Shown here: positions 285 through 44,611 of the stretch, in pieces
Position numbering within the stretch: the first letter of the stretch is position 1
How the letters are laid out: each line of letters begins with the position of its first letter
DNA from: Halioglobus sp.
GTDB lineage: Bacteria > Pseudomonadota > Gammaproteobacteria > Pseudomonadales > Halieaceae
DNA length: 44,722 bases
Assembly: GCA_020443425.1 (NCBI GenBank)
Contig: JAGRIE010000033.1
Coordinates: 1 to 44,722, forward strand
Reading direction: 5' to 3'
Notes under the pieces: generated by a model
The model's input: only the letters and a program-made list of their open reading frames with translations
What the model was told of the DNA's origin: nothing
Database searches by the model: none
Program-made: the position numbers and the translations under genes

Positions 285-351
285 CCGCTAATCGGCGCAA
301 TGCGGTGCGCACCCGACTGCACTGCCTTCGCTTTGGCGGGGCCGCGTTCCT

Positions 352-1245
352 CTAGTCCGGAGCTGCCGGTTTTCTCGCCAGGATAAACTGTTTGCTGGGA
401 AGGGCTTTTTCCAATGCAGCCTTGATCGCTGCACCCCTCTCGTGATTTAGGACGGTGTGCCAGGTCTTGCTCCAGTTCACCAGCGCCGGATGCGGGTTGG
501 CAAAGTCGCTTCCCGTGGGCCAGAAGATCGAAAAGAAAACCGTCCAGAACGCTCCGAACGCCTGATACCGCTCGATCTCAAGGCCTGCGCCTTCCACCAG
601 CCTGCGAAAGTCGTGCTCGGTAAAGATGCGGATGTGGTTTGGCTTTTCAAAGTACTGGGGAGGGGCCGTGTCTTTCATGACGCTCTCACCCACCTCATGC
701 GGTACCGTCAGCAGGTACAGGGCACCGGGCTTGCCGATTCTTGCCATCTCTGCCACCAGCCTCTGCGGGTCGTCGACATGTTCCAGAACCTCTGTGCAGA
801 TCACCTTGTCGGCAATGCCATCGTCGAGATCAATCTGTTCCCCGGTACCGGCGATCGCTGTCAGCTTGCCGCGGGCAGACCCCTGCAGCTGGGCCTCGAT
901 ACTTTTTACCTTTTCCTCGTTGATATCGAGGAATATAACGTCGGCGCCCTGGTTGGCGCAGAACTTGATGGCACCGCCGTCGCCACAACCGACATCCACT
1001 ACCACGTCAGTGGCAGCGATGGGCACGCCTTTACAAATCTCGCCGGTCCCGCTGTTGAACCAGCCCGAATCAACGATATCCAGCAGCCCGACCGCCGCGG
1101 GGTTGTCAGCCGGGTCACGGCCGGCAGGGGCGGATGCCGCGGCGCCCGGCTTGAACGTCGGCGCGCTCAGTTCCGGGCCACTCTCCTGCACTGGCGGCGG
1201 GGTCGGCTTTTTTCGTAGCTGCTTGATGAAATCAGCGAGAGACAT
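352..1245 (-). CDS. SAM-dependent class I methyltransferase (paralogue A)
   Basis: 297 residues. After a proline/alanine-rich N-terminal segment (about 1-45) comes a Rossmann methyltransferase with motif I DVGCGDG near residues 84-90. Downstream are the acidic loop FLDINEE, the post-motif CTEVLEHVDDP, and TVPHE followed by YFEKPNHIRIF. The same string of signatures, including a GW[FCY]N segment just before motif I, recurs in the genes at 5842-6633 and 33404-34234, so the three are paralogues. By family it methylates a small molecule or glycan using SAM in the cytoplasm. O-methylation of a sugar is the likely job given the neighbours, but the acceptor is unknown. It is the last gene of the minus-strand run that begins with the glycosyltransferases upstream (68-base gap). 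The proline-rich N-terminus is not shared by its paralogues. Confidence 0.85.
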   Translation of the reverse strand: MSLADFIKQLRKKPTPPPVQESGPELSAPTFKPGAAASAPAGRDPADNPAAVGLLDIVDSGWFNSGTGEICKGVPIAATDVVVDVGCGDGGAIKFCANQGADVIFLDINEEKVKSIEAQLQGSARGKLTAIAGTGEQIDLDDGIADKVICTEVLEHVDDPQRLVAEMARIGKPGALYLLTVPHEVGESVMKDTAPPQYFEKPNHIRIFTEHDFRRLVEGAGLEIERYQAFGAFWTVFFSIFWPTGSDFANPHPALVNWSKTWHTVLNHERGAAIKAALEKALPSKQFILARKPAAPD

Positions 1246-1313
1246 GGGGCCTGCGCACCTCGGTGGATTTGTACAGGGCGGTACTGCCGGCCTGCGATAA
1301 TTGTCTGTAGTCG

Positions 1314-3101
1314 CTACTGGGCAACGGTGGACTGATGGCGGACTGCATCTGTATCCGACGCCTTGGTGGCGGTGGTGTCGAAATAGTGCTTCATTTTTTT
1401 ATACACCACCTCCTGCCCGGCTGATTGTTCGATGGAGCGGATGCTGCTATTCCGCAGCGACTTGTATTTCCCCGGCTGGTTCATCGCGATATCAAAACTC
1501 TCCCGATACGCCTCCATCAATGAGTTCCAGTCTATGCGGTAACACAGTGTGCGAATTGCCCTGCGTTCATCAATGGGCCAGAAGGTGGGGTACTGGCTGG
1601 ACTTCACGATCAATGCGTTAGTGTCATCAATATAGTCCAGCATCGCTGTATGACGCGGCGCGATTGCCGGAATGCCCTGTCCCATGAACTCCATCAGCGG
1701 TAGGCACTGGCCCTCACAGTGTGAGCTGTTGACGACAAAATGCGTGCTGTTCATCAGGGCCTGGTACTGCTCGTCTGTCAGGAAGCCGTGTACTGCAACC
1801 ACGCGACACTTGAACGGTGACATCTGGGAGTACAGGAGCAGTAACTTGCCGAGGAATGTTGTCAGGTTGTGGTGTGTCATTTTCAGCACGAGGGTCGCAT
1901 TCTCCTCCTCGCGGAAGGCCCAGCAGAATGCGGTCACGATGTCTTCCCAGTTTTTACGGCCGTCCTGGGGGTTCAGCACTGTGGAGTAGACAATGCCCTG
2001 CAGTTGCAACCTGTTTACGTTGGTCGGGTGCGCGCCCGGAAGCTTGTCTGTCACAAAGGCGCGCAACTTGTGCAGGGCGCTGGCAAAAATCCCGCTGCTC
2101 TCCTTCTGGTAATTGTCAGGCCTGCGCATGGCCATGGACTTGATGCCAATACCCAGGGAGCGGTGATCGCGCGCGCCGGGCGCATGGGTCAGGTCCAGGT
2201 TATGGAATTTGATGATGTCGGCATCGGTCTGCGGGTTGAAATTGAAAGTGAAGGACTGGGGAAGCCCATTGGGCGTGAAAGCCAGCTGCTCTGAACCCAG
2301 CGCTACAGTGATTTCACGGTCGATATTGGTGCCATAGGCAACCAACTCCAGTTCGATAGTCACCGGGCCGCGGACGTTGTGCGGCAGCATCACCCAGGGG
2401 GAGCCGGTCCTCGACCAGGCGCCCCAGTCCTCCGCACTGTAGAAACCCACCAGCAGTTCAATGGAGTCGGGGTCATTCTCTGTGAACGACAGCTTGATCG
2501 GGGCATCGTCCCAGGGTTCCATTTTCAGCGGATCCCTGGATCCCCTGACTTCGTCGTTGACCATATCGGTGGACAGGTTGTATGTGCGACTGTCATACAG
2601 GGTGGCTTTGACATCAATCGTCACCTTGCGCGGTTTTTTCCGCAGTGATCCCTGTGGCACGGTGTCGACCGCTGCCGGCAAGACGGTGAGATTGAGACCC
2701 TCCGGAACTGCTTTACGCACCACCTCGGCCGCGTACTCGGATATCGTCAAGGCATTGCCCAGCTGGGAAAGGACCCTGGCCCAGTTGTACTCGGGTTTAT
2801 CGTGCCAGTACTCTTCGGGTATGGTGCTGAACTCCCAGGCGAATACACAGACGGTGGGACACTCCAGGTCGAGCACAGTCCGGTGCGGGGGAGAAAAAGA
2901 CAGGAAGATACAGGGTTCGTCGGGGTTCTCCCGGTAGATACGGTCGACTTCAGTGGCGGGGTCGTTCACTGCAACCAGTGTTCCCAGTCGCTGCATCGCG
3001 GGCAGGTACTTTTTGTAAATAAAATAGTAGCTGTACTCCGCCTTGCCGAGGCGCTGCTCGATGGTTTCCGCGTTGGTTTCCGAGTAAGTGATGATTTTCA
3101 T
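1314..3101 (-). CDS. Glycosyltransferase (GT4-like) with inserted beta-rich segment, copy 1
   Basis: 595 residues. The C-terminal half has the GT4-like nucleotide-sugar-binding signatures LNPQDGRKNWEDI (from about residue 377) and an E-x7-E motif in HCEGQCLPLMEF (E463, E471), followed by GIPAIAP. Between the N-terminal region and this half sits a segment of roughly residues 205-326 with GFYSAEDWGAWS (219-230) near its start and DHRSLGIGI near its end. It looks like a beta-sandwich, probably carbohydrate-recognising, and is not part of a standard GT4. Start is ATG at 3101, overlapping the TGA of the upstream gene by four bases (ATGA), so the pair is probably translationally coupled. It shares the whole architecture with the gene at 3098-4810, implying a tandem duplication. 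Donor and acceptor sugars are unknown. Confidence 0.83.
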   Translation of the reverse strand: MKIITYSETNAETIEQRLGKAEYSYYFIYKKYLPAMQRLGTLVAVNDPATEVDRIYRENPDEPCIFLSFSPPHRTVLDLECPTVCVFAWEFSTIPEEYWHDKPEYNWARVLSQLGNALTISEYAAEVVRKAVPEGLNLTVLPAAVDTVPQGSLRKKPRKVTIDVKATLYDSRTYNLSTDMVNDEVRGSRDPLKMEPWDDAPIKLSFTENDPDSIELLVGFYSAEDWGAWSRTGSPWVMLPHNVRGPVTIELELVAYGTNIDREITVALGSEQLAFTPNGLPQSFTFNFNPQTDADIIKFHNLDLTHAPGARDHRSLGIGIKSMAMRRPDNYQKESSGIFASALHKLRAFVTDKLPGAHPTNVNRLQLQGIVYSTVLNPQDGRKNWEDIVTAFCWAFREEENATLVLKMTHHNLTTFLGKLLLLYSQMSPFKCRVVAVHGFLTDEQYQALMNSTHFVVNSSHCEGQCLPLMEFMGQGIPAIAPRHTAMLDYIDDTNALIVKSSQYPTFWPIDERRAIRTLCYRIDWNSLMEAYRESFDIAMNQPGKYKSLRNSSIRSIEQSAGQEVVYKKMKHYFDTTATKASDTDAVRHQSTVAQ

Positions 3102-4810
3102 ACCGGCGCTGGCTGCCTGATCTGTTTCAACAGGGATTCTAGTCGGGGTTTCAGTTTGTCCATGGAACAGAATTGATACTGGCTTTCCCAGGCGCAGCGG
3201 GACATTCGCTGGTACCTGTCAGGGTCATTGATGGCCACCTCGTAGCTGTCCCGGTACGCGTTGTACAATGACTCCCAGCTGGGCCGGTACCACAGCGTCG
3301 TGAAAACCTGCTGTGGGTCGTGCGGCCAATAGTGAGGTTCTGGACTGGATTCAACCACAAAGGCGTTGTCCTCGCAGATATAGTCAGCCATCGCGGTATT
3401 GTCCGGTGCGATGGCAGGAATACCCGATGACATGTATTCCATCAGCGGCAGGCACTGCCCCTCGCTGCGCGAGGCATTGACGATGTAGCTTGTCGCTTCC
3501 GCCAGCGAGCGGTATTCGTCAAAGGCTATGTAACCGTGCACTACGACAATGCGGCATTTAAATGGATGTAACTGGCAGAACAGCGCGAAGATGTCCTCAA
3601 GATAGCCCGACATATCCTTGTAGGTCATTTTCAGTATCAGGGTGACATCCTCATGATCGCGAAACGCCAGACAGAATGCGGTGAGTATATCCTCCCAGTT
3701 CTTGCGTCCGTCGCGAGGGTTCAGGATGGTGGTATAGACAACGCCATCGAGCGCTATCTTGTGTTCTGTCACATTCAGGGGTGCTGCCACTGCGGCAGCC
3801 TCATCGCGGGAAAGGTTCTCGATACAGACCCTGGCCAGTCCGATACCGATAGTGCGGGGGTCGACGATGGTTCTCTTGGCGCTGATGTCCACGCCGGAGA
3901 ATGTGATGAAGTTGCTGGGCTGGCTGACCTCAAGTTCAAACTCATACTGTGCCAAAGCGACCTGCGGCTGAACGATGACGCACTGGTCCCCGATGCGGAC
4001 CTCGATGTCGCGATTGATGTTGTTGCCGTGAGCATTCATGTCAATGGTCAAGCGGACCCGGCCTGATACTACGCTGGGCAGCATAATCCAGGGGCTGGTG
4101 GTTTTTGACCAGGCACCCCAACCTTCCGGTGCGTAAAAACCGACCATCCACACATCCGGGTTGCTCTGGCCGAAATTGATATCGAGATCGTTGCAGGGTT
4201 CGGGCTTGCTGCCTCCCAGCGGGCGGGCGATCTGGCTGGCGGGGGCGATGCTCTCAGATGCGATATGGAAGTCCCGGTTGTCGATCACTGTGGTGCCCAG
4301 TGTAATGCTGGTGTGCTTGACTGCGTGCCGGCTCGCCGCCGCAGAGCGCAGTTCGGCGCAGGTGTCCCAGAGCGGGGCTGGCACTGCTTCTATAGGAAAG
4401 TCAGCCCCCATGTCCTGCAGCACGACCTGCTTTGCATAGGACGAGTGCGTCAGCGCCTGCCGGAAGTGCTCCAGACAGTAGGTCCAGCTGTCTTTCGGGT
4501 CACTGATGAACTTGCGGTTGGGGATGCTGGAGTATTCCCAGGCAAAAACCGGGATTACGGGGCATGGCATTCCGAACGGGATCTTGTGTGGTGGCGCAAA
4601 CGCCAACAGGCAGCACGCATTGCCACTCTCCAACTCCTGCCTGCAAGCGCTGACGAATGCTTCGTCGAGAGAGTCGATGACCCGCGTATCGCCCAGCGTT
4701 TGAAGCAGCGGCAGATAGGACTTGAGGACAAAATAGTAACTGTAATCAGCATCGCCCAAGCGCGACTCAATAGTTGCGTCGCCAATTTCAGAATAGCAAT
4801 AGAAAAGCAT
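3098..4810 (-). CDS. Glycosyltransferase (GT4-like) with inserted beta-rich segment, copy 2
   Basis: 570 residues. I place the start at the ATG at 4810. An open frame extends 14 codons upstream, but MLFYCYSEIGDATIE aligns directly with the first residues of the downstream paralogue (MKIITYSETNAETIE), and AGGG lies a few bases before the ATG. It has the same three-part build: N-terminal region containing DYSYYFVLKSYLPLLQ, a beta-rich insert opening with GFYAPEGWGAWS and closing with DPRTIGIGL, then the transferase half with LNPRDGRKNWEDI and an E-x7-E in SEGQCLPLMEYM. As a cytoplasmic glycosyltransferase it should add a sugar from a nucleotide donor to the growing glycan. Its stop overlaps the next start (ATGA). 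The specificity is unassigned. Confidence 0.83.
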   Translation of the reverse strand: MLFYCYSEIGDATIESRLGDADYSYYFVLKSYLPLLQTLGDTRVIDSLDEAFVSACRQELESGNACCLLAFAPPHKIPFGMPCPVIPVFAWEYSSIPNRKFISDPKDSWTYCLEHFRQALTHSSYAKQVVLQDMGADFPIEAVPAPLWDTCAELRSAAASRHAVKHTSITLGTTVIDNRDFHIASESIAPASQIARPLGGSKPEPCNDLDINFGQSNPDVWMVGFYAPEGWGAWSKTTSPWIMLPSVVSGRVRLTIDMNAHGNNINRDIEVRIGDQCVIVQPQVALAQYEFELEVSQPSNFITFSGVDISAKRTIVDPRTIGIGLARVCIENLSRDEAAAVAAPLNVTEHKIALDGVVYTTILNPRDGRKNWEDILTAFCLAFRDHEDVTLILKMTYKDMSGYLEDIFALFCQLHPFKCRIVVVHGYIAFDEYRSLAEATSYIVNASRSEGQCLPLMEYMSSGIPAIAPDNTAMADYICEDNAFVVESSPEPHYWPHDPQQVFTTLWYRPSWESLYNAYRDSYEVAINDPDRYQRMSRCAWESQYQFCSMDKLKPRLESLLKQIRQPAPV

Positions 4811-4970
4811 GTAACCCTGTTCGCCTGCCTGTGTTTTCGTTATGCGGAACACCGTGCCCGTATTAGGCTACTTCCAGCGGTGCAAGTCCACCTGTATTCA
4901 TCCTATCCCGTCAGCGGCGAAAAAAGGAATCGCCCATCGTGAAAGTGTGGACAAACTATCACTTTTCCCG

Positions 4971-5861
4971 CTACTTGCTGAGCCTGGCGGCAGGCACGTC
5001 GAGGTTCCAGTAGGCCGGCTGTTTACCACAGTGCTGCAGGAATCGCCGGCTGTCCGGTGCGATCTCGGTATCAAACACTTGCAGCGCATACTTGTCCCAC
5101 GCCAGCGGTTTTTTGCCGAAAGGCCGTCGCAGGCCCAGGCGGGAGAAGATCTGGTCCTGTCGTGCGCCCTCGATCCTGGCGAGTTTCATACCGGTGAAGC
5201 GATTTGAGCGGAGGAAACGAAACAACCGGGAGTCATATAATTTCCTGGAGCCCGCATTCAGCTTGATCTCCTTGGTATCCGGCATGTCGCTGGCAGACAG
5301 GCCGATGTGGTTGAGACAGTCAGCCAGTACTTTGTCCCGGTTGGCCTTCAGCTCTTCCAGAAAGACCACCAGAATAGCCTCATCGCCGAATATGTCGCGG
5401 TAAGTGCCAAGGCGTTCCCAGAACAGTGTGTCCTGGATCATCTGGGGGAACACGCGCAGGCAATCACCGAGCGCATAGGGCGCATTCAGGCCAAAATTGA
5501 CGCCACTGTGATGCATCTCGCGGTAACTCGATTCGATACGGGCGCGGGGATTGCGTGCTATAAATATGAAGCGGCAGTCGGGGTTGTTGTCAAAAATACG
5601 CTGCGCCGCGACCTTCTCGCGCAGGTAACCGGTGTAGTCGGTACTGCCATCGCCCAGAAGCTGGCCGTCCCGGGCGCCGGCATAGTGTTCGTCGTAGCAT
5701 TCATGCTGTGTTTCAAACGCGTCGTGCGAAAAGTACCAGGGCTCCTTGATAGCCGGAATAAATACGCCCGGATGCAGATCCAGCAGTGCGCACAGTGTGG
5801 TGGTGCCGCATTTGCTGAAACCCGGGACAATAAAGTCAATCTTAACCTGGGTGGGCACCAT
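4971..5861 (-). CDS. Sulfotransferase (PAPS-dependent family)
   Basis: 296 residues. The 5'-phosphosulfate loop is PGFSKCGTTTLC (about 13-24) and the 3'-phosphate-binding region is ARNPRARIESSYREMH (R103 to S111 within it), the two hallmarks of PAPS sulfotransferases. It would move sulfate from PAPS to a hydroxyl of a sugar or other small acceptor in the cytoplasm. It is closely similar along its length to the frameshifted gene at 42781-43649. The start overlaps the end of the upstream methyltransferase by 20 bases, so the two are likely co-translated. An AGGAGG lies only one base before the ATG but four before the GTG second codon (5858), so translation may really begin at that GTG. No signal peptide is seen. 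Confidence 0.87.
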   Translation of the reverse strand: MVPTQVKIDFIVPGFSKCGTTTLCALLDLHPGVFIPAIKEPWYFSHDAFETQHECYDEHYAGARDGQLLGDGSTDYTGYLREKVAAQRIFDNNPDCRFIFIARNPRARIESSYREMHHSGVNFGLNAPYALGDCLRVFPQMIQDTLFWERLGTYRDIFGDEAILVVFLEELKANRDKVLADCLNHIGLSASDMPDTKEIKLNAGSRKLYDSRLFRFLRSNRFTGMKLARIEGARQDQIFSRLGLRRPFGKKPLAWDKYALQVFDTEIAPDSRRFLQHCGKQPAYWNLDVPAARLSK

Positions 5862-6633
5862 TCCTCCTGGCTATGATCATCTGGCATCGTGGCAGGGCGT
5901 TGTTCAACGCCATCCTCATTTTCTCCCCGTTGGGGTGATTCAATACCTCCTGCCAGGTCTGTGTCCACAGTATTGTGGCCGGATGTACATTCTCCGTCAG
6001 TGTCTCTCCTGGCTGCGAGGTTGCCCACTTCAGCAGGTAGAAAATGGCCCAGAATCCCGCCAGGTACTCGTGGCGTACAACGTCCAGTCCACAACTCCTG
6101 ACAAGCGCCTCAAAGTCGTCCGAGGAGAAAATCTGGATGTGGTTGGGCTCTTCAAAATACGCTGAGTGCGCGATGTCCTTGACAAGATTCTCACCCCTGG
6201 CGTCCGGCACGGTGAGCACCCAGGTGGCATCTTCGCGGCCTACGCGGACGATTTCAGACAGGAAGTCCTGAGGCCTGCGTACGTGTTCCAGTACCTCTGT
6301 GCTGATGACCAGATCGGCATGCCCGTCGGGTATGGGGATAGGGTTGCACTCGGAGACAATGCCGCGGACTTCTCCGGTGGCAAAACCTTTCACGCGTTCT
6401 TCCAAGGCTCGAACCTTGTTCTCCTGCATGTCCACAAACGTGACATTGGCTCCCATTTTAGCGCAGAAGTTGACATAACCCCCATCGCCACAACCAATGT
6501 CCACTACATTCATACCTGGCTTGACGAAGACGCCGGGAACGAACTCGCCAGTCTTGTCATTGCACCAGCCGCTCATTGTCCTATCGCGCAGCCCGACGTC
6601 GATTGCGCTCGATTTGATATCACTGGAACTCAC
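5842..6633 (-). CDS. SAM-dependent class I methyltransferase (paralogue B)
   Basis: 263 residues with a GTG start at 6633, well supported by a GAGGAG eight bases upstream. Motif I is DIGCGDGG (about 45-52), followed by TFVDMQENK, STEVLEHVRRP, TVPDARGE and YFEEPNHIQIF. These match the signature series in the methyltransferases at 352-1245 and 33404-34234. The role is SAM-dependent methylation, most likely of a glycan sugar. Its 20-base overlap with the sulfotransferase at 4971-5861 makes a methylation-sulfation pair that could act on the same residue, which is an inference from gene order only. Confidence 0.86.
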   Translation of the reverse strand: MSSSDIKSSAIDVGLRDRTMSGWCNDKTGEFVPGVFVKPGMNVVDIGCGDGGYVNFCAKMGANVTFVDMQENKVRALEERVKGFATGEVRGIVSECNPIPIPDGHADLVISTEVLEHVRRPQDFLSEIVRVGREDATWVLTVPDARGENLVKDIAHSAYFEEPNHIQIFSSDDFEALVRSCGLDVVRHEYLAGFWAIFYLLKWATSQPGETLTENVHPATILWTQTWQEVLNHPNGEKMRMALNNALPRCQMIIARRNGAHPG

Positions 6634-6999: not shown

Positions 7000-8286
7000 T
7001 TACTGTATCCGGATTGGCTGAGCACAAGTGACGTGTAGAGGAGACAGGTCTTCAATCAAAAACGAATCTCCAATCTGCATTGATACGGTGACGCTGCTGG
7101 GTGTGTTGCCAAGCTCGGGAGGAACAAAAAGACTCAGGGTTTCCCACGCCTGGCTATTGCCTTGCAGGGTATCGATGGCCAGTGTGTGATACTGAATGGG
7201 TGCGAGGAGATTACCGGAGAGATCGCGCAGGCGGCAGGCCAGGTAGCAGGGGCCGTTGGAATGCAGGGCCAGTGGGCGCGACTTGGAATTAACAATGAGA
7301 ATTTGCAGCACACCGTGACCCGAAGCGTTCACCGCGAAAAACCCCTTGGAGTACAGCGTCAGCGAGCGTGCGATGGCGGGCATATCAGTGACCGGTGAGG
7401 TGGAGACGGGTTGATGCCCCAAGCGCATGCCGGACTGTTGGGGCACAAAGTCGGACAGCCCCTTGCGCGCGGCATCGTATAGCGCCATATCTTCACAAAA
7501 GTAGTCCTGTAAACGAGAGACCAGTTCCGGGTCCATAAAGTCACCCGGCGCGAGTATGCCGACATCATCCAACTCTGATGGCAGTTTGTCCACGTAGCGC
7601 CCCGGCGAGGTGTCGTAAACGTGGTCATGGCGTAGGCTTGTATTGTGCTTGCCGAGTGAAATAGCCTGCCCAGTCCTCTGTGTGAGCCGAGCCGCCAGCT
7701 GATCCAGTTGTTCCACACAGAATATATCGTTATAGCGAACAGCACTCGCAAGTTGGTAATGCTGAGAACTCCAATGTGGATCGAGGTCGGCTGGGTCGCT
7801 CGCCAGCAGGTAGTCTACAAATTCGCGAAAACTGATGCCCTCATATGTGTCCACGGCGCTCCTGCCACGGACAGAGCGTATCAGGTCGATTGTATGCAGA
7901 ACGTTTCCGGGCAGTGTGCGATTGACAAGAAACTTCTCAGAGTAGGCGCTGATAGTGCGACTGACCGGTTCGCGGATTACAGAGAACTTGTAATAGTCAT
8001 CGCTGGATAACACCTTGTTTGCTGCCTCGGGTGCATAGTCCTTCAACAGTACGCCAGTGTTAAAGTTGGCAGTGACAGGATGCACGCCGAATTTGAGAAT
8101 GATGTCGCGGTGCTCCGCGCCGGACAGATCCACCATAAGATGTTTCAGTGTAGTACAGGCACACTTGGCAACCGGTGAGTACAGCAGCTTGTGACGCTCG
8201 CTGATAAACATATTCATCTGCGGTTGGGGAAGCTGGGACTCACCGGCGCGGGAGAAATATTGACCAACGTCATCAAGCCAATTCAT
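7000..8286 (-). CDS. Sulfotransferase family 2-like protein with C-terminal beta-rich domain
   Basis: 428 residues. The N-terminal half has a sulfotransferase P-loop-like motif SPVAKCACTTLKHL (about 37-50) and the 3'-phosphate-binding motif IREPVSRTISAY (about 104-115), as in carbohydrate sulfotransferases of the Sulfotransfer_2 type. From about residue 300 to the end is a separate hydrophobic/beta-rich region with VLQILIVNSKSRPLAL, a pattern of alternating residues that looks like a sugar-binding sandwich. A similar tail is found on the sulfotransferase at 20599-22074. Start ATG at 8286 has AAGGGA nine bases upstream. It likely sulfates a glycan hydroxyl; the acceptor is unknown. The odd point is the extra domain, which single-domain bacterial sulfotransferases lack. 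Confidence 0.8.
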   Translation of the reverse strand: MNWLDDVGQYFSRAGESQLPQPQMNMFISERHKLLYSPVAKCACTTLKHLMVDLSGAEHRDIILKFGVHPVTANFNTGVLLKDYAPEAANKVLSSDDYYKFSVIREPVSRTISAYSEKFLVNRTLPGNVLHTIDLIRSVRGRSAVDTYEGISFREFVDYLLASDPADLDPHWSSQHYQLASAVRYNDIFCVEQLDQLAARLTQRTGQAISLGKHNTSLRHDHVYDTSPGRYVDKLPSELDDVGILAPGDFMDPELVSRLQDYFCEDMALYDAARKGLSDFVPQQSGMRLGHQPVSTSPVTDMPAIARSLTLYSKGFFAVNASGHGVLQILIVNSKSRPLALHSNGPCYLACRLRDLSGNLLAPIQYHTLAIDTLQGNSQAWETLSLFVPPELGNTPSSVTVSMQIGDSFLIEDLSPLHVTCAQPIRIQ

Positions 8287-10713: not shown

Positions 10714-10806
10714 AGAACCTACACTCCAACCGTGGATATGAGCCAGCAACCATACAAGGATTCGGAATGGCAGACAAACTGTTTCCGTGACCGAGCACAC
10801 AGGCTG

Positions 10807-26260: not shown

Positions 26261-26439
26261 ACATAATGTACGGTCATAGATGCGCTCTACATTGACTATG
26301 CAATAAATCGTGTTCAATATCGGCTCGGTGAACAGATCGCCAGTGTATCGCAGGTTCAGCCCTGACGGTGGAGTGGTTTTTCATTAGCGTCGCGCTGAAA
26401 TGGACAAACTATCAGCAAACTCTAACCTTGGAAAATAGA

Positions 26440-37046: not shown

Positions 37047-37084
37047 GCGTTAAGTGGTGAGCTTATGTAAATCGACTGCCACGG

Positions 37085-37185: not shown

Positions 37186-39573
37186 ATGACAGGCAGTACA
37201 GAAAGTAACTTGCATAAAAATCACAGTGATAGCTCGTATAGAAGCGACGGGGTGCACACAGGATTTGCCTCGCGTTGGCAGGACTGCCTGGCGATAACTT
37301 TGCTTATCGCGCTGGTAAGCTACTTCTGGTGGCCGGCGCTGGCTGCGGGTAAGGTAATTGTGCACGCAGACTCCGCACACCATGGCCTGTCATTACTGAC
37401 AATGCTTCATCAGTGGTTGCATCAGGAGCTGGACAGTTTGTTGTGGTCACCCAGTATTTACGGCGGCCACCCCCTGTTTGCAGAGAGTCAGGGTGGTTTC
37501 CTCAATCCGTTGAATCTGGTTGCGGCATACCTGTTTTCACCAACTGTTGCACTTGGCATCGTACATTGGTTGGATATGTTAGCAAGTGGCCTGGGGGTCT
37601 ATTCGCTTTGCCGGTTGCTGAATCTGGGTGCCTGGCCGGCGTTGTTCGCTGCTGTTGCGGTTACTCATGGCACGCTCTGGTTGATGGGGCAGAACAATCT
37701 CGCAGTGCACGGTACCATGGTTTGGGTAGCTTGGACCATGGCGGCTGTGCAGTACTGGCTGAACGCCCCGTCACTGACGCGAGCGCTTTTGGTGGCGGTG
37801 CCCGCAACGTTCATTGTTTATTCGGGCTACCCGCACCTTGCACATGGTCTGGCCGTTTTTTTTGTTTGTATGATGATCGGTTGGTTGCTGCGCAGCGAGG
37901 GGCGGGCCTATCTTTCCGAGAATCTCGGCGCGCTGGCAGCTGGCAGTGTCGCTGCCCTGATACTGGCCTTCAGCCTTTCCGCCGTGCAACTTTTGCCGCT
38001 GCTGGAGTTGGTTGCGAATTCGCATCGTAGTGAGGGTGTGCAGCTGTCGTTTATTGGCATGGTGAATGCGAAGTCCTATTTCTCCGGGACATTGTTTTTT
38101 TCCTGGTTTGACAGAGGCGGTGTCCCTATCGGCTTGACTGGTATCCTGTCTGCTTCAATCCTTGTTGCCCTGTGTGTGCTGCTGAGGGTCAACTATACAA
38201 TCACTGGCTATTTGCTGGCCACTTTCGTGCTTTACAACCTGGGTATTGGCAACGCTTCACCGCTATTCCGGTTCGTTTATGAGTATGGCCTGATACCAGG
38301 CCTGCGAGGGTTCCGCCTAATGCAGCCCTTTCTGCTGATTGCCGTGGTCGGACTCGGTGTGCTCACTGCTGTTGCAATCTCAAAATTGTCTTCCATTTCC
38401 AGGTTGGTATTTATTCGTCCGTTGGGTGGCGGGCGACTACAGGAACTGCCTGTGTTGGTGATTTTCTTTCTATTGTGCCTGGTTGTTAGCTACTACTTTT
38501 ATATGCCGTCGATGAGCGGCTGGAATTATGTTTTCGGCATAACCAGCCTGGCCGCTATTGTGCTGCTGATCTACATTGGCAAGCGACACTGGATAGGACC
38601 TGTACTGGCGCTGCTGCTGGTGGGCGAAATGTTGGTGCTGCGACATGGGATTTACAATTTTTACAATGTTGATGTGTTGGCGCGCCCGGAAAGTGTCGCG
38701 GCGATACAGAAGGAAGAGGACTACCAGGACTATTACTCCTATAGCCTGAACAGCAGAATAGGTTATGCATTTTTGCCGCCTAATCGGCCCGACCTTGATG
38801 TTCTATATCGCTATTATCTTGGAAGCCTTTCACCATTACCGGCCTTGCAGTGGGGTGTGTCCTCCATCAACGGTGCGCTGGCACTGGACCTCCACAGGCG
38901 TGCGATACTGGATGATGTCTTGCAGGCTGAGTCTCTCGGTAACTCAGCCGTGCTGCCGGGACAGAGGCTGATCGACGTATTGGGGGTGCGCTACTTCTCA
39001 TACAAGGCGGCGGTTGATGTGCCGGGATTCACAAACATATACAGTAGACCCGATGGCAGATTGTTGATTTACCGCAATGATTATGCGCAGCCGAAACTGC
39101 GCACCTACTTTTCGGCGCAGCGAGCGGCTAGTCCGGACGAGGCGATGGATATGTTGACACGGGTTGAGCCGGGTACGATTGTGATTGAATCTGATACGCT
39201 GCCTGTGGATGCCAGAGCTCAGCCATGCCCGGCGGGCGTTGCTCCGGCTCACATTGAGAGACGGGATTTCTCGTCACAATACTACAGGATAGCGGTCGAC
39301 AGCCCCTGTTCGGGCTGGCTTTACCTCGGGGACGCCTACTACCCCGGCTGGTCTGCGCAGGTTGACGGTGAGCCGGCCCCGCTCTACCCCGCCCAGGTGC
39401 TGGGAAAGGCGGTGCGAGTGCCGCAGGGGAGCAGTGTGGTAGAGTTCATATTCACGCCTCGCAGCTTTTTTATTGGCACACTAGTGTCCAGTGTTGCCTG
39501 GATTGGGCTCTGTGTCTTCATGCTGTGGCGAGGTATCAGTGTCGTGCGTGAACGCAGGTTTCGAACCACATGA
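37186..39573 (+). CDS. YfhO-like polytopic membrane protein, copy 2 (putative GT-C glycosyltransferase)
   Basis: 795 residues, ATG at 37186 with no strong ribosome-binding site. It mirrors the preceding gene almost segment for segment: VSYFWWPAL, HADSAHHGLSLLTMLHQW, IYGGHPLFAESQGGFLNPLN, LIPGLRGFRLM and SGWLYLGDAYYPGWSAQVDG. The copies differ most in loop residues around 290-310 and in the late hydrophilic part. The gene pair is a tandem duplication. Each may add a different branch sugar, or one may be redundant. A role outside the cytoplasmic membrane is expected from the family. It is followed after 43 bases by the GT2 gene. Confidence 0.8.
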   Translation: MTGSTESNLHKNHSDSSYRSDGVHTGFASRWQDCLAITLLIALVSYFWWPALAAGKVIVHADSAHHGLSLLTMLHQWLHQELDSLLWSPSIYGGHPLFAESQGGFLNPLNLVAAYLFSPTVALGIVHWLDMLASGLGVYSLCRLLNLGAWPALFAAVAVTHGTLWLMGQNNLAVHGTMVWVAWTMAAVQYWLNAPSLTRALLVAVPATFIVYSGYPHLAHGLAVFFVCMMIGWLLRSEGRAYLSENLGALAAGSVAALILAFSLSAVQLLPLLELVANSHRSEGVQLSFIGMVNAKSYFSGTLFFSWFDRGGVPIGLTGILSASILVALCVLLRVNYTITGYLLATFVLYNLGIGNASPLFRFVYEYGLIPGLRGFRLMQPFLLIAVVGLGVLTAVAISKLSSISRLVFIRPLGGGRLQELPVLVIFFLLCLVVSYYFYMPSMSGWNYVFGITSLAAIVLLIYIGKRHWIGPVLALLLVGEMLVLRHGIYNFYNVDVLARPESVAAIQKEEDYQDYYSYSLNSRIGYAFLPPNRPDLDVLYRYYLGSLSPLPALQWGVSSINGALALDLHRRAILDDVLQAESLGNSAVLPGQRLIDVLGVRYFSYKAAVDVPGFTNIYSRPDGRLLIYRNDYAQPKLRTYFSAQRAASPDEAMDMLTRVEPGTIVIESDTLPVDARAQPCPAGVAPAHIERRDFSSQYYRIAVDSPCSGWLYLGDAYYPGWSAQVDGEPAPLYPAQVLGKAVRVPQGSSVVEFIFTPRSFFIGTLVSSVAWIGLCVFMLWRGISVVRERRFRTT

Positions 39574-39616: not shown

Positions 39617-40603
39617 GTGAACAAGAACGCAGCTGAACACACCATTGGTGTAATAATTCCGTGCTTTAAAGTCAGGAAAAAGATCCTCGATGTTATTGCT
39701 GCTATTGGCGCGGAGTGTTCGAGAATCTACGTTGTCGATGACTGCTGCCCGGAAGGGAGTGGTGATCTGGTAGAGGAGGTCTGTACAGACAGTCGCGTCA
39801 CCGTGCTGCGGAACGATACCAACCTGGGTGTGGGTGGCGCTGTGATGGCAGGGTATCAGGCGGCGATAGACGATGGTATTACTCTACTGGTGAAAGTCGA
39901 TGGCGACGGCCAGATGGACCCCCGGCTCATCATGGAGTTTGTGGCACCCATCATTGCTGGTGAGGCAGACTATACCAAGGGTAATCGTTTTTTCGATCTC
40001 GAACAGGTGAAGGCTATGCCTGCGCCCAGGATATTCGGGAATGCCATCTTGTCTTTTATGGCAAAGTTTTCCACGGGTTACTGGGATATATTTGATCCGA
40101 CCAACGGGTTTACAGCGATTCATAGAGATGTGGCCAGAAGTCTCCCGTTTCATAAAATAAGCCGCCGCTTCTTTTTTGAAACCGATATGTTATTCCGGCT
40201 TAACATTCTGCGGGCTGCAGTGGTGGATGTGCCAATGGACGCAAAATATGCGGATGAGGTCAGCAACCTCAAGATCTCCAATGTGATCGGCGAGTTCTTC
40301 ATCAAACACATCAGGAATTTTTTCAAGCGTATTTTCTACAGTTACTATTTGAGAGATATGTCTCTGGCATCGATGGAGCTGCCGCTGGGGCTGGGCATGA
40401 TAGTATTCGGCAGTGTCTTCGGAGCGTACAGCTGGATAGAGTCTATGCATGCCTATAGAGCAACGCCGGCAGGTACCGTGATGCTGGCCGTTCTGCCAAT
40501 TCTGGTGGGGCTGCAGTTTGTATTGGCTTTTATTTCACACGATGTGTCATCAGTACCGAAAAGACCACTGCATCCACGACTGCGCTGGCGGCGCAGGGGG
40601 TGA
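39617..40603 (+). CDS. GT2 family glycosyltransferase (polyprenyl-phosphate sugar synthase-like)
   Basis: 328 residues, GTG start with GGAG eight bases ahead. The GT-A fold is shown by IIPCFKVRKKILDVI (about 13-27), YVVDDCCPEGSGD and the metal-binding KVDGDGQMDPRL. FDPTNGFTAI and FFFETDMLFRLN are also typical of DPM1/GtrB-like enzymes. Two C-terminal hydrophobic spans (around 255-275 and 285-310) anchor it. Such enzymes charge undecaprenyl phosphate with a sugar for use outside the membrane. Its stop overlaps the GtrA-like gene (GTGA), reproducing the known GtrA-GtrB pairing. It probably provides the lipid-linked donor for the YfhO-like proteins, which is inferred from order. Confidence 0.87.
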   Translation: MNKNAAEHTIGVIIPCFKVRKKILDVIAAIGAECSRIYVVDDCCPEGSGDLVEEVCTDSRVTVLRNDTNLGVGGAVMAGYQAAIDDGITLLVKVDGDGQMDPRLIMEFVAPIIAGEADYTKGNRFFDLEQVKAMPAPRIFGNAILSFMAKFSTGYWDIFDPTNGFTAIHRDVARSLPFHKISRRFFFETDMLFRLNILRAAVVDVPMDAKYADEVSNLKISNVIGEFFIKHIRNFFKRIFYSYYLRDMSLASMELPLGLGMIVFGSVFGAYSWIESMHAYRATPAGTVMLAVLPILVGLQFVLAFISHDVSSVPKRPLHPRLRWRRRG

Positions 40604-40977
40604 CACCAAACGTGACACAGCGCTGGCAATTCCCGGTTTTTGTCGCTATCGGCCTTGTTTCTGCAGCGGTTGATATTTTTATACTTCAGGTTCTGGTTTG
40701 GTCGGGCTTCCATTACACGGTTGCCGTCACACTGGGCTTTCTCACAGGTTTTCTGGTCAACTATCTCGGGCATACTCGCGTTACTTTTAAAAAGCAGGAA
40801 ACAGTGGCGAATGTACTGGGATTCATACTGGTCGTGTTGCTGAATTACCTGATTACGCTGTCCTTTGTTGCGTTATCAGAGGTTTTTTTGGATAGTGTTG
40901 TAACAGGTAAGATTGTCTCGTTACCGGTTGTAGCGGTAAACGGGTTTCTCTGGGGAAAATACTTGGTGTTCAAATAA
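40600..40977 (+). CDS. GtrA-like membrane protein
   Basis: 125 residues with four hydrophobic spans, the usual size and topology of GtrA family proteins. FVAIGLVSAAVDIFILQVL opens it, GFLTGFLVNYLGHTRVTFK is the typical middle, and NGFLWGKYLVFK the end. GtrA proteins are thought to move polyprenyl-phosphate-linked sugars across the inner membrane. It overlaps the GT2 gene by four bases and the GNAT gene by one base (TAATG), so the three are tightly coupled. Confidence 0.85.
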   Translation: MTPNVTQRWQFPVFVAIGLVSAAVDIFILQVLVWSGFHYTVAVTLGFLTGFLVNYLGHTRVTFKKQETVANVLGFILVVLLNYLITLSFVALSEVFLDSVVTGKIVSLPVVAVNGFLWGKYLVFK

Positions 40978-41843
40978 TGGAACTTCGACCTCTGGACTTT
41001 TCGCAAGAATCTCTTCTGCGTTATCAGCAGCTTTTTCATACTGCCTTTGCACCGCATCCGAAGTTTTCACCGCAGGCATTGCACTGGTTGTATGTCCAGA
41101 ATCCCGATGGCGAGGCTGTCGGATACGATGCCTATGACGGAGACCGACTGGCGGCGCATTACGCCTGTATACCGACACGCTCCCGAGTGCATGGGAAAAT
41201 TGTCAAGGGGCTGTTGTCGCTCAATACGTCAACGCATCCGGATTACCAGGGCCAGGGTTTGTTTTTCAAGCTCGTGAAGAAGACCTATGAAGCGGCGGCA
41301 GAGCAGGGCTTTGATCATGTACAGGGTGCAGCCAATGCCCAGAGCACACCGCTCTTCATCAGGAAGCTGGGCTTCAGGGAGATCAGGCAGGTTGATGCAC
41401 TGGTTGGTTTCGGTGGTCTGGGCGTCGATCTTGAGGCGGCGAGCCGCGACGCTGAGTATGAACAGGTCTGGTCAGGTGATGCCCTGCGCTGGCGCATGCA
41501 GAATCCAAATAACCCGGTGCGTGCGAGTGCCATCCCTGGCGGCTGGAGCTTTCATGCCGGATCCTTCAGTCGCCTGGTGCCTGCTTACGGAGAGCTGGGC
41601 GCTGCAACCATCAGTGGTGTGGCGATGCATGATGAAATGGTTGGGCGGGCGCCGTTGTCGCCAACGAGATTGTATATAGGACTCCTGCCGGCGAGCGCAG
41701 GAAAACCAAAGGGTTATTTCAGCATACCGGAGCGGTTCAAGCCCTCTCCTTTGAATTTCTTGTTCCAATCTTTCCATGACTCCTCGATCATGATCGACCC
41801 TGAGAGCATTCATTACACCTTCCTGGACTTTGATGCCTACTGA
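40977..41843 (+). CDS. GNAT-family acyltransferase
   Basis: 288 residues. The GNAT acetyl-CoA-binding motif is seen in LSLNTSTHPDYQGQGLFFKL (about 79-98), where Q-x-G-x-G/L is the pyrophosphate loop, followed by the helix LVKKTYEAAAEQGFDHVQG and the LGFREIRQVDALVG strand. The second half, with WSGDALRWRMQNPNNP, resembles longer sugar-cluster GNATs. It would move an acetyl or similar acyl group to an amine or hydroxyl of a sugar. Start ATG overlaps the GtrA stop by one base; the end overlaps the deacetylase gene by 11 bases. Placement beside a deacetylase suggests linked N-acyl chemistry, not proven. Confidence 0.78.
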   Translation: MELRPLDFSQESLLRYQQLFHTAFAPHPKFSPQALHWLYVQNPDGEAVGYDAYDGDRLAAHYACIPTRSRVHGKIVKGLLSLNTSTHPDYQGQGLFFKLVKKTYEAAAEQGFDHVQGAANAQSTPLFIRKLGFREIRQVDALVGFGGLGVDLEAASRDAEYEQVWSGDALRWRMQNPNNPVRASAIPGGWSFHAGSFSRLVPAYGELGAATISGVAMHDEMVGRAPLSPTRLYIGLLPASAGKPKGYFSIPERFKPSPLNFLFQSFHDSSIMIDPESIHYTFLDFDAY

Positions 41844-42657
41844 CCCGTCACCGCCTGTGATGCCTGTAGCGGTAGTGCTTATTTGTCATCAGGATGATGA
41901 GTGCGGTACGTATTTGCAGATTCTCAGGCATCGCCAACTCGGTCGCCGTGTAGTGTGTGCATGCTTCACCCGTGGTGTTATGGGCGAACGGGATGAGACG
42001 CAGAGGAACGCCGAGAGTATAGAGGTGCTGCGCAGGCTCGGCGTCGATGCCGCAGATATCGTTTTCGCCGGCAGTCTGCTGGGCATTGATGATCAGTCGC
42101 TGATCGACAACCTGCCACAGGCCGCTGCTTGGCTGCGGGCCTGGCTGGTTTCACTCGGCCCGGTGGAAGTCATCTACACGACGGCATGGGAGGGTGGTCA
42201 CCCAGACCACGACGCCCTGCATGTGATCAGCGCGCAGGTCTGCCATGAATTGGGGCTGCTGGGGAAACTGCGTCAATATCCGCTGTATAACAGCTACCAG
42301 CGGCCATGGCAGTTTTTCCGCTCACTGTACCCGCTACCGGCCAACGGCCCGGTGGAAAGGATCCGTGTGCCCTGGTCCCTGCGTGTCAGGTTCCTCAGTT
42401 ATTCCTTTATGTATCCTTCGCAGCTGAAGAGCTGGCTCGGGATATTCCCGTTTTTTGTTGCTCACTACATATTCAAGGGAACAGCGCAACTGCAAGCCGT
42501 CAGTCTGGAGAGGATTGCCGAGCGTCCACATGAGGGCGCGCTGTATTACGAAAAGCGTGGTTTTAGTACTTGGAAACATATGCGTGCGCGTATCGATGAA
42601 TGGCTGGGCAGTGTGCCTACTGGCGCGGTGCGCTTTTCGTCCTCGCAGTCCCGGTAG
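41833..42657 (+). CDS. LmbE/PIG-L-family deacetylase
   Basis: 274 residues from the ATG at 41833. The zinc-binding motif usually reads A-H-P-D-D-E; here it is LICHQDDECG (about 16-25), keeping H and DDE but with Q for P. The second part is GGHPDHDALH, keeping the H-x-x-H ligands. Family members hydrolyse N-acetyl groups from GlcNAc-type sugars or lipids. It overlaps the acyltransferase gene by 11 bases. The C-terminal part (RVRFLSYSFMYPSQL, YYEKRGF) matches larger glycan-cluster members. It may prepare a free amine for the neighbouring transferase or for N-sulfation, an inference only. Confidence 0.85.
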   Translation: MPTDPSPPVMPVAVVLICHQDDECGTYLQILRHRQLGRRVVCACFTRGVMGERDETQRNAESIEVLRRLGVDAADIVFAGSLLGIDDQSLIDNLPQAAAWLRAWLVSLGPVEVIYTTAWEGGHPDHDALHVISAQVCHELGLLGKLRQYPLYNSYQRPWQFFRSLYPLPANGPVERIRVPWSLRVRFLSYSFMYPSQLKSWLGIFPFFVAHYIFKGTAQLQAVSLERIAERPHEGALYYEKRGFSTWKHMRARIDEWLGSVPTGAVRFSSSQSR

Positions 42658-42780: not shown

Positions 42781-43649
42781 ATGACAGTACAAGCGCCAAC
42801 AATCGATTTCATGGTCGCCGGCTTCAGTAAGTGCGGCACCACCTCTCTATGCGACGCGCTCGCGCAGCATCCCGATATCTTTATACTGGCGGAAAAGAAC
42901 CGCGTTATTTTTCATCCCCGATATTTGAAAAGCGGCGTCCGGCATTTGCAGGTATGTATGCCCCTGCCCGGGACGGGCAGAAGCTGGGTGATGGCAGCCT
43001 TGTATACAGCGCTGCGGCGCTTGCCAACATCGCTATCCCCCGCATCCGGACCAACAACCCCGACGTTCGGTTTATTTTTATCGCGCGACACCCGCGCAAG
43101 CGTATTGAGTCACTCTACCGGGAAATGCACCACAGCGGCGCGCATTTCGGGGTGGCACCGCCGTTCAGGTTGTCGAGTTTTTTCCAGGATCACGTCGATG
43201 CGATTGAGAACACCCTGTTTTTTGACCGCATCAGCACCTTCATCAAGCAGTTTGGGCGGGATGCGATACTGCCGGTATTCCTTGAAGACTTCCATGCCGA
43301 TAGCCAAAACGTCACCCGTATTTGCTGTGAACATATCGGGGTAGATCCGGAGAAACTACCGCCTGTGGGAGACAGTGTCCTGCATTCAGGCAGTGCCAAG
43401 CTTTACGACACCTGGTTGTTGCGCAGAATGCGCCGTCATCCGCTCACTGGATTTCGCATCGCCAGTTTAACACCAGAGCAGCAGAACCATTTTTTTCAGA
43501 AGATAGGTTTGCGACGTGCTTTCGGCAACAAGCCCGTGGTTTGGGATGAGCCAGCAGAAGTGATGTATAGGGATAAAGTCGTTCCGCAGGCGCGTAAGTT
43601 TCTGGAATTGTGCGGGAAGTCGCAGAGTTTCTGGAAGCTTGACGTGTAG
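42781..43649 (+). pseudogene. Sulfotransferase with a -1 frameshift near its N-terminus
   Basis: The start (MTVQAPTIDFMVAGFSKCGTTSLC, PAPS loop about 13-24) and DIFIL are in one frame. The rest, from KEPRYFSSPIFEKR through IARHPRKRIESLYREMH to the end FWKLDV, is in the -1 frame. The break falls at the A run 42893-42896. One more A would give GCG GAA AAA GAA CCG and restore a 289-residue protein matching the sulfotransferase at 4971-5861 throughout, including the N-terminal PGFSKCGTT-like and KEPWYF/KEPRYF segments. So this is a recently broken gene, a sequencing error in a homopolymer, or much less likely a programmed shift. If intact it would be a PAPS sulfotransferase. Confidence 0.85.
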
Positions 43650-43681
43650 TGGCTGTCTGCTGGTAACTCAGGCGACACAGC

Positions 43682-44575
43682 ATGAGACGCTTATCCCGCT
43701 ACCGCCTTCCGCCGCCGCTGCCCCGCGAGAGCGTTGACAAGGGTGCGCAGATGTTGCTCGCGTTGCGTTACAGGGAGTTGGCCCGCCAGGGCGAGGTGTT
43801 GCCCTTCGATGCTGTCGAGTTCCGCAATTACTCCCAGTTTGGAGAAGACGGCATTCTCCACTACCTGTTCTCTCTTGTGGGGACGACAAGTCGTCGTGCG
43901 GTGGAAATGTGTGCGGGTAACGGTATCGAGTGCAACGCCACCAACCTGATTCTCAATCACAGCTGGCACGCACTACTGCTTGATGGCGGTAGTAAAAATG
44001 TCGAGGAGGGCCGGCGCTTTTACAGTACCCATCCGCCCACCCAGTTTATGGCGCCAGTATTCTTGCACAGCTGGATCACACGCGACAATGTGAACACTGT
44101 GCTGCGCGACAGTGGCTTCAGTGGGGAGGTGGACCTGTTCAGCCTGGATATGGACGGCACGGACTACTGGATATGGGATGCCATTACCGAGATATCACCG
44201 CGAATTGTGATGGCGGAGGTCAATCTGCACATGGGCCCTGAGCCGCTCACGGTACCCTACAGTGACAAATTCCTGGCCCAGTGGATAGAGCTGCAGCCCG
44301 AAGCAGGCAGTGAGCGCTCCGAGGGCCGGCAGTTGCAGAACTGGACCATGTACGGCGGTGCGTCGCTGGCGGCCCTCAACAAACTGGCAAAACGGAAGGG
44401 CTACCGGCTGGTCGGTTGTAACAGCCTGGGCTTTAACGTTTTCTTTATGCGCGAGGATGTGGGCGTCGACCTGTTCCCTGAGGTGAGCGTCGCAAGCTGC
44501 CGGTCGCCGGGTGCCAGCAGTGATACCGAGCGTGCAACACAAGTGCTACTGCAACAGGAATTGCAGAGGGTATGA
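43682..44575 (+). CDS. FkbM-like methyltransferase family protein
   Basis: 297 residues. NYSQFGEDGILHYLFSLVG (about 49-67), VEMCAGNGIECNATNLI and LLLDGGSKNVEEG form the SAM-binding half in the style of a divergent FkbM-like group common in surface-glycan clusters. FSLDMDGTDYWIWDAI and IVMAEVN are further landmarks. It lacks the plain GxGxG motif I of the other methyltransferases in the window, having A-G-N-G instead. O-methylation of a sugar is the best inference. It follows the frameshifted sulfotransferase by 32 bases, ends the plus-strand run and converges with rpiA over 36 bases. Confidence 0.72.
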   Translation: MRRLSRYRLPPPLPRESVDKGAQMLLALRYRELARQGEVLPFDAVEFRNYSQFGEDGILHYLFSLVGTTSRRAVEMCAGNGIECNATNLILNHSWHALLLDGGSKNVEEGRRFYSTHPPTQFMAPVFLHSWITRDNVNTVLRDSGFSGEVDLFSLDMDGTDYWIWDAITEISPRIVMAEVNLHMGPEPLTVPYSDKFLAQWIELQPEAGSERSEGRQLQNWTMYGGASLAALNKLAKRKGYRLVGCNSLGFNVFFMREDVGVDLFPEVSVASCRSPGASSDTERATQVLLQQELQRV

Positions 44576-44611
44576 CTTCAGTGAGGTTGCTCGGTATCCA
44601 CTCTACAGGGA

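Follow-up and report, generated by a model that had tools for sequence, protein, structure and literature searches.

What product would call for a set of 33 genes, six sulfotransferase loci among them, placed between the ends of two core genes? This question is raised by the window, the whole contig JAGRIE010000033.1 (C149; 44,722 bp) of a metagenome-assembled genome from Halioglobus, family Halieaceae (MAG; 222 contigs, 4.33 Mb, 94% complete, 4% contaminated). Its genes are named here by their first coordinate. We think it probable, though well short of certain, that this island is a strain-variable surface-polysaccharide locus, most likely for a lipopolysaccharide (LPS) O-chain or capsule of the common polysaccharide antigen (CPA) type. 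In this scheme gmd and a reductase would turn guanosine diphosphate (GDP)-mannose into a GDP-6-deoxyhexose, probably GDP-D-rhamnose, and DUF7024 and GT4 enzymes would carry out the cytoplasmic assembly of the chain. O-methyl and sulfate groups would be added to it by methyltransferases and sulfotransferases, with 3'-phosphoadenosine 5'-phosphosulfate (PAPS) supplied by chromosomal genes; a transporter encoded outside the island would export the chain, and in the periplasm a GT2-GtrA-YfhO set would attach a side sugar. Variation of the sulfation pattern would come from gain of sulfotransferase genes and from exchange of catalytic domains on a shared accessory domain.

A core module kept in related genomes

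Is any part of the island fixed? The loci compared here (L117-L193 and others) come from one scan with the DUF7024 enzymes (1314 and its relatives), and are the best-scoring 77 of 222 confirmed relatives. Twelve of them (L117-L128) belong to seven genomes, whose titles read Haliea, Halioglobus, Parahaliea or just Gammaproteobacteria. Eleven genes of the window were followed as a core:

1314..3101, minus strand: DUF7024 glycosyltransferase (PF22895, 40 bits; glycosyltransferase match just under cut-off, 24 vs 27 bits)
3098..4852, minus strand: DUF7024 glycosyltransferase, paralogue of 1314 (36%), over a glycosyltransferase cut-off in Pfam
4971..5861, minus strand: sulfotransferase of Sulfotransfer_1/3 type (39.0 and 38.9 bits, over cut-off; 3rnl E 1.9e-15)
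5842..6633, minus strand: S-adenosylmethionine (SAM) methyltransferase overlapping 4971, over Pfam cut-off
10807..13698, minus strand: two-domain GT4 glycosyltransferase, 963 amino acids (aa), with two Glycos_transf_1 stretches
13674..14411, minus strand: no Pfam match; by eye it has a coiled coil and a membrane stretch; stays next to 10807, with homologues in L117, L118, L119, L121 and L125
14814..15518, plus strand: core protein without Pfam match, conserved in related loci
15535..16581, plus strand: GT4 glycosyltransferase (80.5 bits)
16578..17876, plus strand: GT4 glycosyltransferase (33.4 bits)
26368..27474, plus strand: GDP-mannose 4,6-dehydratase, gmd (TIGR01472 466.6 bits, cut-off 415)
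27471..28370, plus strand: GDP-4-keto-6-deoxyhexose reductase-like, rmd type, sugar open (4lw8 286 bits, 2pk3 134.7, 6x3b 130.2)

All eleven are present in L117, L118 and L119. Only the reductase is missing from L121, whose stretch ends in gmd; L125 is without 4971 and 5842, L126 without 13674 and 10807, and L128 without these two and 14814. DUF7024 enzymes with few or no other core genes are found in L120, L122, L123, L124 and L127. The module is seated elsewhere in the chromosome (neighbours judged by eye) in G015 and in Parahaliea mediterranea TN14-10, a cultured relative that has the core (L126; NZ_JAFKCZ010000001.1, about 278-299 kb), and YfhO, GT2 and PIG-L genes accompany it in L121. 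The 5842-type methyltransferase adjoins the 4971-type sulfotransferase in 7 of 7 genomes (L117, L118, L119, L121, L126, L127, L128). Judged by these comparisons, related genomes preserve the core as a module, placed at other seats.

Fifty further loci (L144-L193) are mostly from Pseudomonas and Collimonas. Homologues of both gmd and rmd occur in 40 of them and Wzm in 43; homologous methyltransferases number at least one in all 50 and at least two in 32. None of the 50 was matched by four profiles of the window sulfotransferases, a search of open reading frames (ORFs) of at least 200 aa by which other sulfotransferase types are not excluded. Over the whole set these profiles match ORFs in 12 of 77 loci, and L138 has a further tblastn match. 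A separate observation concerns L135 (CAMAXE010000027.1), titled a Klebsiella pneumoniae MAG, which has DUF7024, gmd and Wzm homologues together with a 4971-type sulfotransferase of 40% identity; the title looks like a mislabel.

Sulfotransferases and their accessory domain

How many of the six loci encode sulfotransferases? Besides 4971 the candidates are as follows.

7000..8286, minus strand: sulfotransferase (Sulfotransfer_2, 91.3 bits) with C-terminal accessory domain, aa 299-425
18811..19932, minus strand: sulfotransferase-like, PAPS-site-like motifs at aa 79-87 and 189-197; no Pfam match, hhalign to the 7000 family
20599..22095, minus strand: sulfotransferase of KTGTSSIQ type with C-terminal accessory domain, aa 369-498 (Pfam 18.3 bits, under cut-off 22; family profile)
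23892..25001, plus strand: sulfotransferase-like, KTGSTSIQ type, homologue of 20599; no Pfam sulfotransferase model, 20599 family
42781..43649, plus strand: frameshifted sulfotransferase in two frames, paralogue of 4971 (45% over 251 aa, 64% over 33 aa)

Pfam sulfotransferase cut-offs are passed by two loci, 4971 and 7000. Both frames of 42781 match below the cut-off of 27 (16.9 and 25.2 bits), and no Pfam sulfotransferase model matched 18811 or 23892. Some sulfotransferase profile is therefore matched by four of six loci, two of them below cut-off, so that most did not fail this check. 20599 and 23892 are homologous (25% identity, E 2e-8), and members of their family turn up in 54 of the 140 family genomes (the MAG is one of them), often in several copies each. 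A profile of 24 rows of this family, which leaves out two Sulfotransfer_2 proteins (L118, L125), gave 3rnl, a solved sulfotransferase, first among solved structures (E 4.9e-6), followed by weak matches to Tel1 kinase (0.066) and heparan sulfate 3-O-sulfotransferase 5 (HS3ST5, 0.19); hhalign against the 4971 family gave 86.1% (control 0.2%). With the two proteins included the values were 9e-6 for 3rnl, 0.039 for HS3ST5 and 91.3% for hhalign. Pfam matches are rare among single rows (n=26, E 0.01): three to Sulfotransfer_3, two to Sulfotransfer_2, one to Sulfotransfer_4 and one to Sulfotransfer_1. The assignment of 20599 and 23892 as sulfotransferases is thus well supported at the level of family profiles.

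Relatives of 18811 were seen in ten family genomes out of 140 (one being its own), and none of the ten rows matches Pfam. Against the 7000 family hhalign gave 92.5%, with the P-loop-like and Arg stretches aligned (one control, 0.2%). This profile comparison and the motifs give moderate support to 18811 as a sulfotransferase. The PAPS site is formed by the lysine loop that binds the 5'-phosphosulfate (5'-PSB) and by the Arg...Ser that binds the 3'-phosphate (3'-PB). Its K, R and S are conserved in 10, 10 and 10 of 10 rows of the 4971 type, in 10, 10 and 9 of 10 of the 18811 type, in 8, 8 and 8 of 10 of the 7000 type, and in 25, 23 and 25 of 26 of the 20599/23892 type, where two rows are Sulfotransfer_2 proteins aligning only by their C-terminus. 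Both motifs are present, by inspection, in all five intact window proteins. The intact paralogue 4971, to which the longer frame is 45% identical, supports 42781 as a sulfotransferase gene; its frameshift may be a real lesion or an assembly error. Up to six sulfotransferase genes had been counted in the sequence-only reading: the five open ones can be kept, 18811 at moderate strength, and the sixth is broken. Sulfation by the locus is probable.

Then how might the set have diversified? The last 130 residues of 20599 resemble the C-terminal domain of sulfotransferases in four other loci (30-34% identity). The catalytic part of 20599 has no similarity to theirs (blastp, E up to 1), and theirs is Sulfotransfer_2, over cut-off, in all four. 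The Sulfotransfer_2 enzymes with this accessory domain are:

L118:1952-3139
L125:5417-6619
L119:12730-13905
L234:416-1591

Close homologues of the glycosyltransferase 22208 are found in two loci only, L118 and L125 (75 and 77%; elsewhere at most 40%), and in both the accessory-domain Sulfotransfer_2 gene adjoins this homologue, with strand and order as for 20599 in the window. The slot and the kind of accessory domain are thus the same, and the catalytic family is another. Inside the window, the domain recurs at the C-terminus of 7000: compared with that of 20599 it scores 95.6% in hhalign over 118 columns, against 0.1-0.2% for controls made with one unrelated alignment. The two proteins are of different catalytic families and have this accessory domain in common. 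A 7000 relative in L128 bears the domain N-terminally (E 5.6e-5). Catalytic and accessory parts of sulfotransferases appear to have been mixed and matched among related bacteria.

The accessory domain has no Pfam match; its role is probably to hold or recognise the glycan, or to dock. Besides sulfotransferases, its profile matched only three Wzt C-termini (E 0.005-0.03). A second profile round was circular, because a Wzt stretch had entered the profile. Kinship with Wzt_C was not established: hhalign gave only 4.3% and 2.9% (controls 0.0-0.8%), and it is therefore not claimed. One can go further and suppose that a CPA locus was turned into a sulfation machine, in which, inside a single bacterial family, whole catalytic domains of different sulfotransferase families are swapped in one gene slot onto a glycan-holding domain that stays fixed, changing the sulfate pattern of the glycan, and with the whole island present or absent at a shared site. 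We put this forward tentatively, as somewhat doubtful.

Five open and one broken sulfotransferase loci in 44 kb, 1% of the MAG, is dense. The window holds two of the three MAG matches to the 23892 query, the single match to 7000 and one of the two to 18811, a concentration beyond chance. Elsewhere in the MAG, contig C148 (9-23 kb; L062, L063) has four Sulfotransfer_3 matches in 14 kb, and contig C138 (30-43 kb; L263) has four in 12 kb, two below cut-off, with glycosyltransferases too, by eye. Among the relatives, G014 (C49) has three 23892-type matches within 5 kb and G079 (C1) three within 13 kb. In view of such clusters the number alone is less surprising than the sequence-only reading held, and more can be learnt from the constant pairing of methyltransferase with sulfotransferase and from the exchange of domains than from the gene count.

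Do these enzymes act on a polymer at all? The sulfotransferase-type proteins might instead modify small molecules, lipids or LPS core, which we regard as quite improbable. It would fit with the 24 of 26 MAG Sulfotransfer_3 matches that lie outside the window, and with ten stretches around some of the MAG's Sulfotransfer_1 matches, in which only weak methyltransferase or dehydrogenase matches to window genes were found. It is opposed by the 4971 type being fixed next to a methyltransferase in every one of the seven genomes, and by the enzymes with the 20599 accessory domain adjoining a 22208 orthologue in L118 and L125.

Seat, supply and export

The island has the following edges.

3..284, plus strand: C-terminal end of a flavin adenine dinucleotide (FAD)-binding oxidase, left seat; 93 codons and stop, open to the contig edge, 67-96% identity in relatives
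44611..44722, minus strand: C-terminal end of rpiA, right seat, matching rpiA in relatives

Both confirm the 44 kb glycan island between core genes that had been proposed, and the majority of the 33 genes between them are glycan-related (Pfam on 37 ORFs). Three ORFs (8283-8849, 23556-23888, 30143-30682) were Pfam-scanned without match and are excluded from the count. All 18 genus genomes, counting the MAG, have rpiA. In stretches fetched from each of 17 genus relatives, 14 have the oxidase and rpiA only 31-710 bp apart, with almost nothing inside, and so the interval does not consist of ordinary conserved genes. In G002, another species of the genus, the spacing is 11.7 kb and no window homologue lies inside (G002:C363, L044, ~989-12730). 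In G015 the two genes are not together within 39 kb, and in G011 the interval is broken by a contig end.

In a second contig of the same MAG, C176 (1-4000, L056), the oxidase end and rpiA are separated by about 2.2 kb of other sequence. Identity to the window is 91.8% over 98 bp at the rpiA end (window 44625-44722) and 98.8% over 85 bp at the oxidase end (window 196-280). C149 and C176 thus end at one junction, and the simplest reading is that they come from two co-binned strains, with and without the 44 kb island; a chimera is possible. Differing inserts at this junction in one MAG suggest an insertion hot spot. The window has no tRNA or Rfam element, and at the island ends only short direct matches were found (best E 0.27), no clear terminal repeat. 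A twin island was sought in MAG contigs C139, C148 and C174 (whole) and in parts of C144 and C189, with weak methyltransferase or dehydrogenase matches only. That the window is an assembly or binning artefact, non-neighbouring pieces joined or another species in the bin, is very improbable: two contigs of one MAG do end at one junction, but the sequence at either edge fits this genus, and independent genomes repeat the gene order inside, one module at a time.

The hot spot raises another possibility, that independent glycan modules have gathered here into a composite that makes no single product and includes some passenger or decaying genes. Island genes have a GC content of 44-60%, against 57-65% in nine other MAG stretches; there are paralogue pairs and one frameshifted sulfotransferase; and the same seat carries the unrelated 11.7 kb in G002 and the 2.2 kb in C176. 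GT2 and YfhO occur in L127, and GtrA, GT2, YfhO, PIG-L and GNAT in L155, with no gmd in the stretches examined. Yet several species keep the order of the modules at seats elsewhere, and YfhO, GT2 and PIG-L stand beside the core in L121. We hold this composite to be unlikely. The other genes of the island are:

352..1245, minus strand: SAM methyltransferase (Methyltransf_23 68.8 bits; 44% to 5842, 42% to 33284)
8626..9399, minus strand: SAM methyltransferase, over Pfam cut-off; 43% to 17983
9904..10800, minus strand: short-chain dehydrogenase (PF00106, 137 bits)
17983..18765, plus strand: SAM methyltransferase (49.5 bits)
22208..23398, minus strand: GT4 glycosyltransferase (118 bits)
25262..26107, minus strand: aldose 1-epimerase family (PF01263, 126 bits)
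28415..30049, minus strand: weak DUF4185 match (15.8 bits, under cut-off), lipoprotein-like by eye; homologues in L117 and L119
30701..32221, plus strand: GMC/FAD oxidoreductase (70.2 bits)
32237..33115, minus strand: PhyH-type dioxygenase (111.6 bits)
33284..34234, plus strand: SAM methyltransferase (66.9 bits)
34608..37046, plus strand: YfhO-type membrane glycosyltransferase (32.8 bits, cut-off 28.5)
37186..39573, plus strand: YfhO-type, tandem copy 69.5% identical to 34608 (26.7 bits, just under cut-off)
39617..40603, plus strand: GT2, presumed lipid-phosphate-sugar synthase (64.4 bits)
40600..40977, plus strand: GtrA-type flippase (52 bits)
40977..41843, plus strand: GNAT acetyltransferase (40.7 bits)
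41830..42657, plus strand: PIG-L deacetylase (46.5 bits)
43682..44575, plus strand: protein without Pfam or NCBIfam match; 47% homologue in L142

Five methyltransferases pass Pfam cut-offs (352, 5842, 8626, 17983, 33284); of the six first counted, the possible sixth, 43682, matches neither Pfam nor NCBIfam. Seven or more glycosyltransferases had been estimated; six are over a glycosyltransferase cut-off (3098, 10807, 15535, 16578, 22208, 39617), 1314 assigned through DUF7024 and two YfhO-type proteins besides. In L117 and L119 the homologue of 28415-30049 is kept beside the methyltransferase-sulfotransferase pair, and it possibly acts on the glycan. GT2, GtrA and the first YfhO lie side by side at 34608-40977, all over cut-off, and in make-up form a three-component glycosylation set of known kind; the tandem YfhO genes (34608-39573) are a duplication of the presumed periplasmic glycosyltransferase.

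What weighs against a sulfated surface polysaccharide of CPA type? Sulfate transfer and sugar identity are predictions from the genes. Searches of Pfam and NCBIfam with 18811, and of the PDB with its family profile, gave no match, and AlphaFold2 gave a predicted local distance difference test score (pLDDT) of 37 for 18811 and one relative and 39 for 20599, 23892 and one relative. The best solved match of the reductase 27471 is an uncharacterised 'putative epimerase' (4lw8, 286 bits), ahead of two GDP-6-deoxy-sugar reductases, solved rmd enzymes at 130-135 bits. The MAG is rich in sulfotransferases elsewhere: its lists, which overlap, hold 13 matches to Sulfotransfer_1 (one in the window), two to Sulfotransfer_2 (one) and 26 to Sulfotransfer_3 (two). 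Pfam on the 37 ORFs found no PAPS synthesis gene in the island, unlike the published sulfated-capsule clusters, and no Wzm/Wzt, Wzx or Wzy; nor has any of the 12 loci L117-L128 a Wzm. The export route is therefore unproven.

Some of these points can be set beside the rest of the genome. The reductase has 33-36% identity to the rmd homologues of most Pseudomonas loci, and its product might be another 6-deoxyhexose, such as 6-deoxy-talose; of the proposed gmd-rmd pair, gmd stands and its neighbour is reductase-like, of rmd type. The sulfated, methylated, D-rhamnose-containing glycan suggested earlier would still be the predicted product. ABC exporters and an adenosine 5'-phosphosulfate (APS) kinase are present elsewhere in the MAG: the one APS kinase (235 bits) lies on contig C111 with ATP sulfurylase beside it by eye, and of seven ABC2_membrane matches one, on C167, has a Wzt-like ATPase beside it, by eye a Wzm-like/Wzt-like pair. 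Wzt_C is found nowhere in the MAG and in 7 of 18 genus genomes, and the five Wzy_C matches over cut-off all lie outside the window. The sequence-only reading saw no flippase, polymerase, ABC exporter or PAPS gene; this is right for polymer export and PAPS in the island, and 'no flippase' needs qualifying, because of GtrA at 40600 in the three-component set.

Comparison with known systems

Is such a locus new? No paper on this locus was found in open-licence PubMed Central (PMC). The capsule clusters of Vibrio sp. KMM 8419 and Cobetia marina KMM 1449, also marine Gammaproteobacteria, likewise have sulfotransferases among glycosyltransferase and nucleotide-sugar genes, and a sulfated product was isolated from them (PMC11641403, PMC11766843). 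They carry PAPS genes, an ABC exporter and deoxythymidine diphosphate (dTDP)-rhamnose genes, the first two of which are absent from the window. Of the 80 genes in the Vibrio KMM 8419 cluster, three are for sulfotransferases (PMC11641403); the window has six loci (one broken) in 33 genes. The CsbB/GtcA/YfhO system of three-component transmembrane glycosylation (PMC8035078) is alike in having a GT-A enzyme, GtrA and YfhO side by side; the window differs in its two tandem YfhO genes and Gram-negative host.

A cluster of Pontiella sulfatireligans F21, which makes sulfated exopolymers, shares gmd, GT2/GT4, methyltransferase, sulfotransferase, yfhO, undecaprenyl-phosphate mannosyltransferase and gtrA with the window (PMC7356697). 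It belongs to another phylum, holds one of the strain's three sulfotransferase genes, and has tuaB, absent here. This likeness, and an island without Wzm/Wzt or Wzy, would suit a free exopolysaccharide or a protein-attached glycan in place of an O-chain or capsule. We judge that rather unlikely, since Wzm/Wzt are present in the most numerous group of loci that combine DUF7024, gmd/rmd and methyltransferases, and the P. syringae member is an O-chain locus. With these marine clusters published, the core kept in related genomes and a likeness to the gmd-rmd CPA loci of Pseudomonas, 'an undescribed system' was too strong as a description of the island.

Then what does the locus mean? Little is known of bacterial sulfotransferases acting on polysaccharides, as PMC11641403 also states. 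The compact conserved module, the fixed methyltransferase-sulfotransferase pair and the domain-exchanged sulfotransferases are testable candidates, with a D-rhamnan-like chain as predicted substrate. If the proposed scheme is true, sulfation would be a variable surface-glycan trait within a marine bacterial family, with likely effects on grazing, on how phages recognise the cells and on how much sulfated polysaccharide is supplied.

A close likeness in gene content is to the Pseudomonas CPA locus (A-band, D-rhamnan), which is alike in gmd, reductase, DUF7024 glycosyltransferases, methyltransferases and GT4 enzymes; the window is without its Wzm/Wzt and acyltransferase and has added sulfotransferases. 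Five further CPA genes were reportedly described by Hao et al. in 2013, and PA5455-PA5459 of that work we take to be of the DUF7024/methyltransferase kind. Locus L163 (P. syringae) reads GT, GT (glycosyltransferases), Wzt, Wzm, gmd, rmd, DUF7024 enzymes, methyltransferase, acyltransferase, methyltransferase, with Wzt_C by Pfam. This content agrees with the P. syringae region reported in PMC12608077 as a CPA locus with gmd, rmd and wzm. The variable glycan island with its conserved core is real, and it resembles a CPA locus without Wzm/Wzt and with sulfotransferases besides.

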